Source of the DNA: Eubacteriales bacterium
GTDB lineage: Bacteria; Bacillota; Clostridia; Monoglobales; Firm-18
DNA length: 43,823 nt
Assembly (NCBI GenBank): GCA_028697835.1
Contig: JAQVDK010000007.1
Location: forward strand, 1-43,823
Direction: 5' to 3'
Positions 24,761 to 33,859 of the stretch are shown here, piece by piece. Position 1 is the first letter of the stretch, and each line of letters opens with the position of its first letter. Position numbers and translations under genes: made by a program. The notes beneath the pieces are model-generated. The model saw only the letters and a program-made list of their open reading frames with translations, was not told the origin of the DNA and made no database searches.

Positions 24761-24791
24761 ATCCGTGCTTTATTTTTCCTATGGAAAGGAA

Positions 24792-25814
24792 ATGTATAGG
24801 TTGAAAACAGAAAAACTTTCCACTTCAAATAAAGATATAGCCCGTGCCGCAGCATTGCTGAAAGGCGGCGGGCTTGTTGCGTTTCCTACGGAAACTGTTT
24901 ATGGACTGGGGGCAAATGCCTTGGACGGGAGTGCTGTGGAAAAAATTTTTAAGGCAAAAGGCAGACCTTCCGATAATCCGCTTATTGTTCATATATATGA
25001 CATAAATCAGGTTAGCAGCCTGGTTTTGGAGGTAAATGATAATGCTAAAAGGCTAATGGAAGCTTTTTGGCCCGGTCCTATAACCATAGTTATGAAAAAA
25101 AGCGATAAAATTCCTTCTTCGGTAAGTGCAGGCCTTGATACCGTGGGCGTACGCATGCCCGAAAACCCTGTTGCCCTTCGTTTTTTAAAGGCGTGCGGTG
25201 TTCCTGTTGCAGCCCCGTCGGCAAACACTTCGGGAAAACCCAGCCCAACCCTTGCAAGCCATGTGGCGGAGGATTTGGACGGCAAAATTGATGCAATTAT
25301 TGACGGTGGGCAGTGCAGTGTGGGCCTTGAATCCACTGTGATTGACGTAAGCTCCGAAGTGCCAATGCTGCTAAGGCCCGGCGGCATTACGTTTGAGCAG
25401 CTTACCGAGGTTTTGGGTCATGTGGTGTTGGCTTTTGAATGCAAGGAAGGGGCGGCGCCACGCTCGCCGGGTTTAAAGTATCAGCACTATTCACCCTCGG
25501 CGCCTGTGTATGTTGTTCGAGGCGATTTTGACGAATATGTGATTCAAAACAGCAAAAAATACGAAAAAGTGGGCGTTATAACTTCAAACAAGGCAGATTA
25601 CCCGTCAAATTGCATCGTAAAGCGCTTTGACAGCGAGCCTGCTTCATATGCAGCAAATTTATTTGCTTACCTTCGCAGTTTGGACGGGGAAGGTGTGCAG
25701 GTTATATTTGCACAGGACATAGACTGTAAAGGCATAAACCTTGCCACAAATAACCGGCTTTACAAGGCTGCAGGGTATAAAATTGCAAATTTCAAAGGAG
25801 GAAGATTAATATAA
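24792..25814 (+). CDS. ywlC: L-threonylcarbamoyladenylate synthase (Sua5/YwlC)
   Basis: LLKGGGLVAFPTETVYGLGANALD, KAKGRPSDNPLIVHI, APSANTSGKPSPT; C-terminal Sua5 domain; exact start uncertain. Confidence 0.93.
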   Translation: MYRLKTEKLSTSNKDIARAAALLKGGGLVAFPTETVYGLGANALDGSAVEKIFKAKGRPSDNPLIVHIYDINQVSSLVLEVNDNAKRLMEAFWPGPITIVMKKSDKIPSSVSAGLDTVGVRMPENPVALRFLKACGVPVAAPSANTSGKPSPTLASHVAEDLDGKIDAIIDGGQCSVGLESTVIDVSSEVPMLLRPGGITFEQLTEVLGHVVLAFECKEGAAPRSPGLKYQHYSPSAPVYVVRGDFDEYVIQNSKKYEKVGVITSNKADYPSNCIVKRFDSEPASYAANLFAYLRSLDGEGVQVIFAQDIDCKGINLATNNRLYKAAGYKIANFKGGRLI

Positions 25815-26684: not shown

Positions 26685-27707
26685 TTGACAACAGGACATA
26701 TACTTGCAATAGAGTCGTCTTGCGACGAAACAGCCGCGGCCGTTTTGGAATTTGGCGGTGGCTTTAATGTAAGGTCGAACATTATTGCATCACAAATAGA
26801 GCTTCACAAAATCTATGGCGGGGTTGTGCCTGAAATAGCATCTCGAAAGCATATTGAAAGCGTTACAAAGGTAGCGCAGCAGGCGCTGATTGAGGCGGGC
26901 GTGGGGTTTGACAAAATAGACGCCGTTGCCGTAACATATGCGCCCGGGCTTGTGGGCGCCTTGTTGGTAGGTGTAAGCTATGCAAAATCCTTGGCATTTT
27001 CCCTTAAAAAGCCTTTAATACCTGTTCACCATATTGAGGCGCATATTTGTGCCAACTTTATATCCTCGCCCGATTTAAAGCCTCCCTTTGTGTGCCTTGT
27101 GGCGTCGGGAGGGCACTGTACAGTTGCTTTGGTTGAAAGCTATACGGATTATCATGTTATGGCAACTACCAGGGATGACGCACCGGGGGAGGCTTTTGAC
27201 AAGATAGCCCGTGTTTTGGGACTGGGGTATCCGGGAGGACCAGCCATACAGCAAGCGGCGGAAAATGGGCGCGCCAGCGCCTTTTCCTTTCCACAGGTCC
27301 AATTTAACGATTCTTTGGATTTTAGCTTTAGCGGCGTAAAAACTTCGGTTATAAACATGGTTCATAATTTTACCCAAAAAGATAATCCCGTCCCGGTAGA
27401 AGACATTGCGGCATCTTTTCAGCAGGCAGTGTGCGAGGTTTTGGCAGACAGGCTTGAAGCTTGCGCAAAAAAAGCCAATGTTAAAAATATAGCTTTGGCT
27501 GGGGGCGTGGCGTCTAATACGCTTTTGAGGAAGCTTTGCAAAGAAAGGGCAGAAAGACAAGGACTTGGGTTTTACTGCCCGCCGCCTGTTTTATGTACGG
27601 ATAACGCTGTTATGATTGCCGCAAGGGCATATTTTGACTTTATCAAAGGAAAGTTTGGCGGCTTGGATTTGAATGCAATAGCAAATCTTGACATTGCAAA
27701 AATGTGA
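26685..27707 (+). CDS. tsaD: tRNA N6-adenosine threonylcarbamoyltransferase TsaD
   Basis: AIESSCDETAAAVL, VVPEIASRKHIE, HHIEAH, LVASGGHC, DDAPGEAFDKIARVLGLGYPGGP, SFSGVKT. Confidence 0.98.
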   Translation: MTTGHILAIESSCDETAAAVLEFGGGFNVRSNIIASQIELHKIYGGVVPEIASRKHIESVTKVAQQALIEAGVGFDKIDAVAVTYAPGLVGALLVGVSYAKSLAFSLKKPLIPVHHIEAHICANFISSPDLKPPFVCLVASGGHCTVALVESYTDYHVMATTRDDAPGEAFDKIARVLGLGYPGGPAIQQAAENGRASAFSFPQVQFNDSLDFSFSGVKTSVINMVHNFTQKDNPVPVEDIAASFQQAVCEVLADRLEACAKKANVKNIALAGGVASNTLLRKLCKERAERQGLGFYCPPPVLCTDNAVMIAARAYFDFIKGKFGGLDLNAIANLDIAKM

Positions 27708-27760
27708 CATATTTCTACAGAAAAATAATTTTATGTAAACAGAATTAATTATTTTTTAAC

Positions 27761-27864
27761 TGTGGAAAGAGTGAACAAGTTATGGACTGACCTGTGGAAA
27801 ACTCTTGTTTTTCCCTGTAATAAGCAGGTGAATCTGTGGAAAACTTTGTGGATAGTGTGGAATA
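27761..27864 (+). promoter_or_regulatory. Cluster of DnaA-box-like nonamers
   Basis: Five same-strand TGTGGANNN nonamers: 27761 TGTGGAAAG, 27793 TGTGGAAAA, 27835 TGTGGAAAA, 27847 TGTGGATAG, 27856 TGTGGAATA; preceded by an AT-rich tract. Confidence 0.55.
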
Positions 27865-27952
27865 ACTTTTCAAAAAGATAGAAATGTTACAGAATTATGT
27901 CAAACCTCAACTAAAATTTGTAAAAACATATAAAAAAGTGGAGGAAGAACCG

Positions 27953-29608
27953 ATGGGGCTAAGAAGTAGGCAGACTTTTCTGCAGGGTGCTTTAATTCTT
28001 GTGATTTCGAGCATTTTCGTTAAAATATTTGGTGCGGTATTTAAAATACCCCTTGTCAGGCTGATAGAGGAGGACGGTATCGGGTTTTTTAATACTGCAT
28101 ACACTTTGTACGCATTTTTTGTTTTGGCGGCAAGGGGGATTTCCGTTGCGGTATCGAAGATGGTTGCCGAAAGCAATACCTTGGGAAATGCAAGGGAATC
28201 CAACAGAATTTTAAAAATTTCACTGGTTATTTTGGGAAGCATAGGTGTGGTAGGAACAGGATTTTTATATTTTTATGCCGAGGGCTTTGCAGCCTTGCTT
28301 AAAAATCCCAATGCGTCCGCCAGCATAAAAGCAATAGCGCCGTCGGTTATGTTTGTAGCATTGGTTTCGGCTTTCAGAGGATATTTTCAAGGGCAGCAGA
28401 ACATGTATCCCACAGCCTTTTCAGAGGTTATAGAATCCTTTGGAAAGCTGGTTTTCGGAATTGCCTTGGCTTGGCTTTTCATAGGCGAAAGTGTGGAGAA
28501 GGCTGCAACGGGTGCGGTTTTTGGCGTCACCACCAGCACTTTTTTAAGCCTTGTGTTTATTGTGTTGTTTTTTGCAATAACAAAGCGCGAGCGCAGCATT
28601 TCCATCGTAGGAAGGCTAAGAAGCAGGAGGGAGATAGCAAAGGAGCTTGTTGTAATTGCTTTTCCCATTACAATCGGCGTTGCCGTATCCAGCCTTACAA
28701 ATGTGGTGGATATGATGACGATAACACGGCGCCTTCAGGATATTACCCAGGTTACACCGGAGTTTATGGAAAAGTATAAAAGCCTGATTAATGCCGAAAG
28801 CTTCAGCGGGGCAATAGACAGCGACCTTGCAAACAAGCTGTATGGCCTTTATTCCGGCTATGCGCTTCAAATGTTTAACCTGCCCCTTACAATGATAGTT
28901 GCCCTTGCTACGAGCGTTTTGCCCGCAATATCCGGGGCACTTGCAAAGCATGACATGAACATGGTTGACAAAACCGTCAAAAGCGTTATAAAAACCACTA
29001 TTTTGTTTTCGTTGCCGGCATCGGTCGGTCTTGCGGTTTTGGCAGAGCCTGTTTTGCTGCTTATTTTAAACAGCTCTCTTGCGGCGAATCTGCTTAGCGT
29101 GGTTTGTGTGGCGATTGTGTTTGTGTCCTTGGTTCAGGTTACCAATGCCATTTTGCAGGCTTATGGAAAAATGACCGTGCCTGTTGTTAATATGGTAATT
29201 GGCGGAGCGGTCAAGGTTGTGTGCAATTATGCTTTGATAGCAAATCCGGCTTTAAACATAGACGGGGCGCCCATAGGGACAATAGCCTGTTATTTTGTTA
29301 TAACGGTCTTGAACTTTATCCATATTAAAAGAGTGTGCGGTGTAAAGTTTGGCGTTTTGGACCTTGCTGTAAAGCCTATTTTGGCTTCGGCGGGAATGGG
29401 GGCTGTTGTTTATTATGCAATGGTATGGTTTGGTAACATAGGCCTTGGTCTTAAAGCAGGTGTTTTGCCTGCCATAGTGGTTGGCGTGGCGGTTTATGTT
29501 GTTTTAGCTTTTGCATTGGGGGCTGTAAGAGAAGTTGATATTTTGATGCTTCCGGGAGGCAGGGCAATAGCATATAAATTAAAAAGAATGAAACTACTTA
29601 GGAGTTGA
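27953..29608 (+). CDS. MATE/MOP-superfamily lipid II/polysaccharide flippase, SpoVB (YabM)-like
   Basis: SRQTFLQGALILVISSIFVKIFGAVFKIPLVRLIEEDGIGFFNTAYTLYAFFVLAARGISVAVSKMVAE; start trimmed to ATG 27953 after GGAGGAAG; yabO/P/Q synteny. Confidence 0.85.
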   Translation: MGLRSRQTFLQGALILVISSIFVKIFGAVFKIPLVRLIEEDGIGFFNTAYTLYAFFVLAARGISVAVSKMVAESNTLGNARESNRILKISLVILGSIGVVGTGFLYFYAEGFAALLKNPNASASIKAIAPSVMFVALVSAFRGYFQGQQNMYPTAFSEVIESFGKLVFGIALAWLFIGESVEKAATGAVFGVTTSTFLSLVFIVLFFAITKRERSISIVGRLRSRREIAKELVVIAFPITIGVAVSSLTNVVDMMTITRRLQDITQVTPEFMEKYKSLINAESFSGAIDSDLANKLYGLYSGYALQMFNLPLTMIVALATSVLPAISGALAKHDMNMVDKTVKSVIKTTILFSLPASVGLAVLAEPVLLLILNSSLAANLLSVVCVAIVFVSLVQVTNAILQAYGKMTVPVVNMVIGGAVKVVCNYALIANPALNIDGAPIGTIACYFVITVLNFIHIKRVCGVKFGVLDLAVKPILASAGMGAVVYYAMVWFGNIGLGLKAGVLPAIVVGVAVYVVLAFALGAVREVDILMLPGGRAIAYKLKRMKLLRS

Positions 29609-31849: not shown

Positions 31850-33859
31850 TTATTTTATTGTAATGCTGTTTCTAAATTCGGCAGGGGTCATTGAAAATTC
31901 CTTTTTAAAAAGTCTTATAAAATGTTCAACGTTTGGATACCCAACTTGTTCGGAAATGTTTTCAATAGCCATTCCGCTGCCTTTGAGCAGGTTTTTTGCT
32001 TTATCCATGCGGATTTGCTTTACAATGTCTCCAAAAGTTGAGCCGGTGCCCTCTTTTATATATTTTGACAAATAGGGCTTTGACAAAAAGAATTTTTCTG
32101 AAAGGGCTTCAAGCGAAACTGTTTTGTAATTTTCCTGTATATAGTTTAAGATATCGGTCATTCTTTGGTCTTCACGCTTTAAATGCTGAATTTCGTTAAT
32201 CTGGTTTACGGCAACTGCCAGTGCGGCAATGGACGCATTTATAATGTCTGTTTCAATGCCTGCACCCCAGTACATTTTTTCGTTGCTTTTCACGCCCACA
32301 TAAGCAATAGCTTTAGAGTGGGAGCCTATTGAAAGAGAGTGCTCTTCGTAAATCTCAAGCTCGTAATCCACGCCAAAATGCTCTTTAATTCCGTTGCTTA
32401 CAGCATCCAGCCTTCCGTTTCCTTGGGCGGTAACTGTTTGCGTTTTGCCGCCATGGCAAATTGTAATGTCGGCTGTTATATAATCCTTTTCACGCCTGAA
32501 GTGGCTTTCGGGGATTTGGAATATATGGGAGCTTCGAAGATATTTTTCTTCGAAAATTCTGTAAATATCTTCGGGGGAAAGCTCTTTGTGCGCCTTGTCG
32601 GAAGCATCTTTAACAATATATCCGAAAGGCTCTCGCATTTGCTTTGGAAGGTCAATACCAAAGTTTCTTTGAAGTATATACGCCACACCGCCCTTGCCGG
32701 ATTGGCTGTTTATACGGATAACGTCCGAATCGTATTGGCGACCTATGTCCATGGGGTCTATGGGTAGATAAGGCACTTCCCAATACGGGGTTTTCTTATC
32801 TTCTCTCCATTTCATGCCTTTTGCAATAGCATCCTGATGAGAGCCGGAAAATGCGGTAAACACCAAGTCTCCAGCATAAGGCTGTCGGGCGTCAACAGTC
32901 ATTCCTGTCAGGTTTTCATAGCTTTCTCGAATCTTTGCCATGTTGCTAAAGTCAAGCCCCGGGTCAACTCCGTGGGAATACAAGTTCATGGCCATTGTTA
33001 TTATGTCCAGGTTTCCTGTTCGCTCGCCGTTTCCAAATAAAGTTCCCTCAACCCTGTCTGCCCCTGCAAGCATGCCAAATTCCGCATCACTTATAGCGCA
33101 GCCCCTGTCGTTGTGTGGGTGCAGGCATAGGATTATAGAATCCCTGTATTTTAAATTCTTGTGCATGTATTCCACCTGGCTTGCAAAAACATGGGGCATT
33201 GCATTTTGTACGGTTGTAGGCAGGTTTATAATAGCCTTTTTATCAGGCGTGGGCTGCCATACGTCTAAAACCGCATTACAAACCTCAAGGGCATATTCCG
33301 GCTCTGTTCCGGAAAAGCTTTCAGGGCTGTATTGGAAGGAATAATTGCCTTCCTCCGACTCGGCAAGCTCTTTCAAAAGAAGGGCGCCGTCAATTGCAAG
33401 CTGCTTTATTTCTTCTTTTGATTTTCCGAAAACCTGCTCCCTTTGTGCTACGGACACAGAGTTGTAAAGATGAATTATGGCATGAGGAGCGCCCTTTACC
33501 GCTTCAAAGGTTTTGCGTATTATATGAGGCCTTGCCTGGGTTAAAACCTGAATGGAAACGTCCCTTGGAATCATGTCCTCTTCGATTAGCTTTCTTAAAA
33601 ACTGAAATTCCGTTTCCGATGCGGCAGGAAAGCCCACTTCAATTTCCTTAAAGCCAATTTCCAGCAGCAATTTAAAAAACTCGACCTTTTCCTCAAGACC
33701 CATAGGCTCAATGAGTGCCTGGTTGCCGTCTCGAAGGTCCACGCTGCACCATATCGGCGCCTTATCTATATAGTCTTTTTTTACCCAGTCGTATGTAACA
33801 ACCGGGGGCATGTAATACATTCTTTTATACTTTTTGTGATTCTCCATTTTGCTTACCAC
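31850..33859 (-). CDS. leuA: 2-isopropylmalate synthase (type 2 LeuA) fused to C-terminal AraC-type DNA-binding domain
   Basis: N-term [54 protein letters not shown]-term [83 protein letters not shown] (two HTHs). Confidence 0.93.

Follow-up and report, generated by a model that had tools for sequence, protein, structure and literature searches.

Clusters of DnaA boxes outside oriC are already known in Bacillus subtilis, and recent reviews give each of them little weight. Of the eight regions bound with high affinity by DnaA in this organism, one lies downstream of gcp and ydiF. It contains 10 DnaA sites, has an apparent Kd of 0.15 uM for ATP-DnaA, and its DNA was recovered at 55 nM 16-fold more with ATP-DnaA than with ADP-DnaA (PMC4447404). 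The gcp gene is located at 628 kb of 4.2 Mb, and gcp and ywlC are flanked by two of the strongest DnaA sites outside oriC (PMC4447404). DnaA appears to repress ywlC and regulates sporulation through sda (PMC4447404). Deletion of six clusters outside oriC results in early initiation, according to the accounts of Okumura 2012 given in PMC5295017 and PMC13220808. B. subtilis clusters with a significant datA-like role in the control of initiation are stated not to have been identified (PMC5295017).

The array described here was found in a Clostridia bacterium (Eubacteriales; GCA_028697835.1, contig JAQVDK010000007.1), in a stretch of 43,823 nucleotides, the whole of which was analysed and is called the window. 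Like the B. subtilis gcp/ydiF cluster, it is situated directly 3' of tsaD (gcp), comprises many DnaA boxes and is outside oriC; the convergent ABC-F neighbour of the B. subtilis cluster is common to the sampled array-bearing Bacilli. Unlike that cluster, the array is followed by a co-directional gene for a spoVB-like flippase and has five boxes, known from sequence alone, against the 10 sites listed for B. subtilis. The ywlC gene is a homologue of tsaC, and gcp and ywlC are both t6A genes. Escherichia coli datA, likewise a group of DnaA boxes in non-coding DNA at a distance from oriC, lowers initiation and serves here as a working analogy only. It has a different gene neighbourhood, works together with IHF and stimulates the hydrolysis of DnaA-bound ATP. 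IHF is reportedly absent from B. subtilis, where no datA-like ATP-hydrolysis activity is known (PMC13220808, PMC5295017). The bipartite oriC of Firmicutes (rpmH-dnaA and dnaA-dnaN) shares with the array its DnaA boxes, AT-rich DNA and the 12-bp spacing, but its boxes are on both strands, the 9-bp spacing is rare, and it is located beside dnaA at the GC-skew switch. The sda and ywlC promoters of B. subtilis also carry DnaA-box arrays outside oriC; these are upstream of the regulated gene, whereas the present array is at the 3' end of tsaD and the gene next to it varies.

The box array between tsaD and the spoVB-like gene

Five TGTGGA boxes, all on the plus strand, occupy 104 bp of the gap between the two genes, 54-157 nt past the tsaD stop codon. 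Their coordinates and strand, first proposed in an earlier note on this DNA, were confirmed by reading, as were the direct adjacency of boxes 4 and 5 and the AT-rich stretch (27721-27757) ahead of the boxes. None of the five is an exact copy of the perfect box, TGTGGATAA; three deviate from it by one mismatch and two by two. With at least three DnaA boxes at a mean spacing below 100 bp, the array falls within the gcp/tsaD type of cluster.

Features of the tsaD-spoVB interval and the associated genes (positions in the window)
Feature	Position	Strand	Sequence or remarks
tsaC	24765-25814		Same gene run as tsaD, upstream of tsaD
tsaD (gcp), t6A tRNA-modification gene	26685-27707	+	Pfam TsaD 5.5e-94; NCBIfam TIGR03723 above cut-off
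TTATGTAAAC block	27731-27740	+	Conserved 5' of the array in same-family relatives (alignment of G000, G001, G004, G005); not a DnaA box
DnaA box 1	27761-27769	+	TGTGGAAAG; not kept within the family (alignment)
DnaA box 2	27793-27801	+	TGTGGAAAA; upstream box, 42-43 bp ahead of the triplet
DnaA box 3	27835-27843	+	TGTGGAAAA; triplet position 0
DnaA box 4	27847-27855	+	TGTGGATAG; triplet position +12
DnaA box 5	27856-27864	+	TGTGGAATA; triplet position +21, 9 after box 4
TTATGTCAA block	27895-27903	+	Conserved 3' of the array within the family (alignment)
spoVB/MurJ-like flippase	27953-29608	+	Pfam Polysacc_synt and MurJ; top NCBIfam match spore_V_B below cut-off

The window contains 34 copies of TGTGGA on both strands, and its densest 105-bp single-strand stretch holds 5. 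After dinucleotide shuffling of the window (n=300), the densest stretch held one copy in 213 shuffles and two in 87. Box density was assessed genome-wide by pattern search. With up to three mismatches, CTGTGGAAAACTNTGTGGATA matched the array and one further place, on contig C73 (two mismatches); the core of the array, CTGTGGAAAACTTTGTGGATA, has no further close copy in the genome, and the exact triplet TGTGGA-N6-TGTGGA-N3-TGTGGA occurs in a single place, the array itself.

C73 also carries a second conserved DnaA-box group (G000:C73:18464-18492; L012 9965-9993; loci L071 and L072), which reads TGTGGATAA-AGTGGAAAA-N3-TGTGGATAA with spacings of 9 and then 12. It is located between hisD and bofA, next to spoVAC and sigF, and is also present in G002 and G004. 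Beside both box groups there is a TTATGTNAA(C) motif (27731-27740 and 27895-27903 in the window; L012, L071 and L072), which also occurs once near dnaA (C70, about 1581) and once near dnaN (C53). This motif is not a DnaA box and is possibly the site of a partner protein; its significance was computed within the window only, where TTATGTNAAC has one copy, in the 5' block, against 0.54 expected.

An Rfam scan of the array region gave no match to an RNA element up to E = 1. A promoter-like site on the minus strand, TTGACA-N17-TATCTT, overlaps the conserved block 3' of the array, but its -10 element is not preserved in the alignment of relatives, and the promoter and terminator scan, combined with the alignment, revealed neither a terminator nor a conserved antisense promoter at the array. 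The ATG of the spoVB-like gene is preceded by GGAGG. The earlier description of the flanking genes as all running one way holds for the main genes between 9.9 and 31.6 kb, which are on the plus strand, and fails for an unannotated minus-strand ORF of 236 aa at 16.6-17.3 kb. Further on, a minus-strand ORF of 669 aa (31850-33859) encodes a 2-isopropylmalate synthase (HMGL-like, IPMS_D2, LeuA_dimer) with a C-terminal AraC-type helix-turn-helix domain (HTH_18).

Distribution and geometry of the arrays 3' of tsaD

A search of 40 genomes anchored on SpoVB orthologues found the array in its own family alone. It is present between tsaD and spoVB in four other genera of the family, where successive boxes begin at intervals of 43, 12 and 9 bp. 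One locus of the family (L018) has a degraded box at triplet position 0, and in genus g4, where SpoVB is located elsewhere, the tsaD 3' region retains weak boxes only. The family-specific element hinted at by this search was rejected when anchoring on tsaD revealed a wide distribution. A tsaD region was scored as positive when at least three DnaA boxes were present within 130 bp, inside 500 bp of the tsaD stop, the cut-offs being set during the work. The phylum sample comprised 146 genomes of 100 families, with Bacilli sampled via divergent TsaD. Its tsaD loci were not picked for the cluster; in part it consists of best TsaD matches, and four genomes of family f100 were included for a triplet held elsewhere. 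In this sample the cluster is present 3' of tsaD in 78 genomes and in 51 families. Only 13 of 1155 other 500-bp windows were positive (Fisher p ~6e-70 against the 3' tsaD regions, relatedness ignored), and the regions 5' of tsaD, most of them coding, were positive in 2 of 148 cases (1/89, 1/30 and 0/29). A comparable density of TGTGGA at random intergenic sites, named in the earlier note as grounds against its reading, was thus found neither in these background windows nor in the shuffles and the pattern search, and the conservation in relatives that it named as a check extends from the other genera of the family to the phylum.

Among eighty named TsaD loci, 3' clusters occur in Clostridia, Negativicutes and Bacilli, with every triplet on the tsaD strand; the carriers include Sporomusa, Alkaliphilus, Kroppenstedtia, Brevibacillus and Thermovorax. 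When presence and absence were placed on the TsaD tree, 29 changes were required, whereas shuffled labels required 50 on average and never fewer than 41; the array is therefore inherited, having been lost and/or gained many times. In an exact-triplet search of 399 genomes, 9 of the 15 genomes with a copy among the matches listed had it directly 3' of tsaD; the remaining listed triplets are inside coding sequences (trmE, for example), at the gyrA 3' end, in gaps elsewhere and, in family f100, after argH. In that family (L206-L209) the exact 0/12/21 triplet follows argH, and the tsaD 3' end retains a pair, with a TGGGGATAA box some 43 bp further along; possibly part of the array was duplicated or relocated.

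The geometry of the array recurs along with its place. Of the 564 boxes in 85 positive loci, 489 share the strand of tsaD and 75 are opposite to it. The spacings that stand out are 9 bp (67 loci), 12 (60), 21 (44), 42 (25), 43 (25), 44 (16) and 54 (28). An upstream box, often a 9-bp pair, followed after 42 bp by a triplet at 0/12/21 is matched to varying degrees by 45 loci, the fit being anchored by box score, so that box conservation there is partly by construction. The layout of pair, 42 bp and triplet recurs in Clostridia, Negativicutes and Bacilli. The upstream box, 42-43 bp and then 12 bp are also found among the compared loci of Bacilli (L328 and L329, for example), all from species other than B. 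subtilis.

The gene after the array differs by lineage. It encodes a spoVB-like protein, in the own family only, or elsewhere Lgt, a radical SAM protein, a Mur ligase (murC), a 2-hydroxyacid dehydrogenase, a transglycosylase, a histidine kinase, IspD or a NuoE-like protein, and in Bacilli a convergent ABC-F protein; in 24 of the 85 loci the next ORF is on the opposite strand. Since the downstream gene varies, the array is linked to tsaD, and control of the next gene is disfavoured.

Origin, gene control and chance as alternative readings

The array is outside oriC, being neither adjacent to dnaA or dnaN nor at a switch of GC skew. As the earlier note had observed, neither gene is nearby: dnaA is on contig C70 and dnaN on C53. 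On C70, dnaA adjoins rqcH and parAB, and the contig stops 15 nt past the dnaA stop; upstream of dnaA (L011) there are rqcH and then parA/parB in place of rpmH, and the dnaA-dnaN gap coincides with a break in the assembly. The DnaA protein encoded here has the usual C-terminal region, as judged by eye. The suggestion that the array is a relic or secondary origin draws on its dense boxes beside an AT-rich stretch and on the absence of a TGTGGA box from the dnaA leader of the studied genome. However, a box cluster with spacings of 43 and 12 bp is present at the end of the dnaN contig of the same genome (L046), and the dnaA-dnaN gap carries boxes in the relatives G001 and G002. The skew check named in the earlier note gave no switch: GC skew in the window is +0.15 and +0.20 on either side of the cluster. 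In three complete array-bearing Bacillota genomes (G091, G256 and G177) the sign of the skew is the same on both sides of tsaD (-0.23/-0.24, -0.04/-0.16 and +0.24/+0.22) and flips at dnaA (-0.23/+0.17, -0.16/+0.19 and -0.25/+0.15). In ten cluster-positive genomes with both genes on one contig, tsaD is about 150-720 kb from dnaA, 8-25% of the chromosome (hand-derived). The layout of the dnaA regions of 18 genomes also differs, with boxes on both strands, the 12-bp spacing in 14, the 9-bp spacing in 2 and the triplet in none. An origin, relic or secondary, is extremely unlikely, and this reading was rejected on GC skew and location. That the array is a chance clustering in TG-rich, AT-rich intergenic sequence, in which weak boxes are more numerous, has a probability close to nil: three boxes per 105 bp were reached in 0 of 300 shuffles of the window, clusters within 200 bp downstream of tsaD number 71 in 146 real regions against 10 in 2920 shuffled ones, and strand and spacing recur across loci. 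Shuffles and conservation together refute chance.

Two readings assign the array to the control of a neighbouring gene. DnaA bound to it might control transcription of the spoVB-like gene and the sporulation block, as the earlier note had also proposed. Arrays of the own family, where present, do precede spoVB, and DnaA acts on sporulation in B. subtilis through sda (PMC4447404). Against this, the next gene and its strand differ between lineages, whereas the tsaD linkage is constant; outside the family the array is followed by lgt, murC, ispD and the other genes named above, or faces a convergent gene. Such control is quite improbable, and a spoVB promoter element was rejected, the next gene being variable. 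Alternatively, the array might have a cis effect on tsaD itself, with DnaA at the 3' end of the gene blocking read-through or antisense transcription or otherwise coupling t6A modification to the state of DnaA or of replication. It keeps to tsaD whichever gene comes next, tsaC is upstream in the same gene run, and in B. subtilis the DnaA sites flanking gcp and ywlC, the latter apparently repressed by DnaA, provide a parallel (PMC4447404). Its position past the stop codon, however, rules out ordinary promoter repression of tsaD, the scan described above showed neither a terminator nor a conserved antisense promoter, and an action in cis on tsaD is unlikely.

A predicted DnaA platform and its meaning

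The region is probably a tsaD-linked DnaA-box cluster of the B. subtilis 3'-gcp kind, predicted by analogy to bind ATP-DnaA and to restrain initiation. It looks like an old, shared DnaA brake or sink rather than a second origin. The binding of DnaA is expected from the behaviour of the B. subtilis region, and the braking function from the early initiation of the strain deleted for six clusters. The idea of an ectopic DnaA-binding locus put forward in the earlier note is supported in its titration part by the B. subtilis 3'-gcp site (PMC4447404) and by conservation across Bacillota; datA and DARS remain analogies only.

The same-strand boxes at fixed spacing (upstream box, 42 bp, triplet at 0/12/21) would form a platform for the assembly of DnaA. 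Spaced by 21 and 42-43 bp, or approximately two and four turns of the helix, boxes 2, 3 and 5 would lie on one face of the DNA, and this shared face would favour cooperative binding. DnaA bound at the array would be withdrawn from oriC. Each copy of the site would for this reason act as a brake on re-initiation, and the number of copies would double on passage of the replication fork.

About half of the sampled families have no array 3' of tsaD, and the array is therefore dispensable or replaceable. Titration alone leaves the linkage to tsaD unexplained, since a pure titration site needs neither one fixed gene neighbour nor fixed spacing. It is conceivable, though doubtful, that Bacillota possessed the array 3' of tsaD as an ancient cis element before Bacilli and Clostridia split, and that it links DnaA to t6A tRNA modification: occupancy by DnaA at tsaD, and at tsaC/ywlC, would match decoding capacity to chromosome replication, over and above titration.

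In the literature searched, no description of a phylum-wide conserved strand and spacing of the array was found, nor any paper treating DnaA, tsaD and the DnaA box together; the primary paper on the clusters is known via reviews, and the novelty is to that extent uncertain. Retention of place, strand and spacing of the putative DnaA brake in about half of the sampled families, despite exchange of the neighbouring gene, points to selection on the array. Its conservation raises the question of why it is found beside a t6A gene, and the tsaD array offers a phylum-wide site for testing the titration of the initiator.
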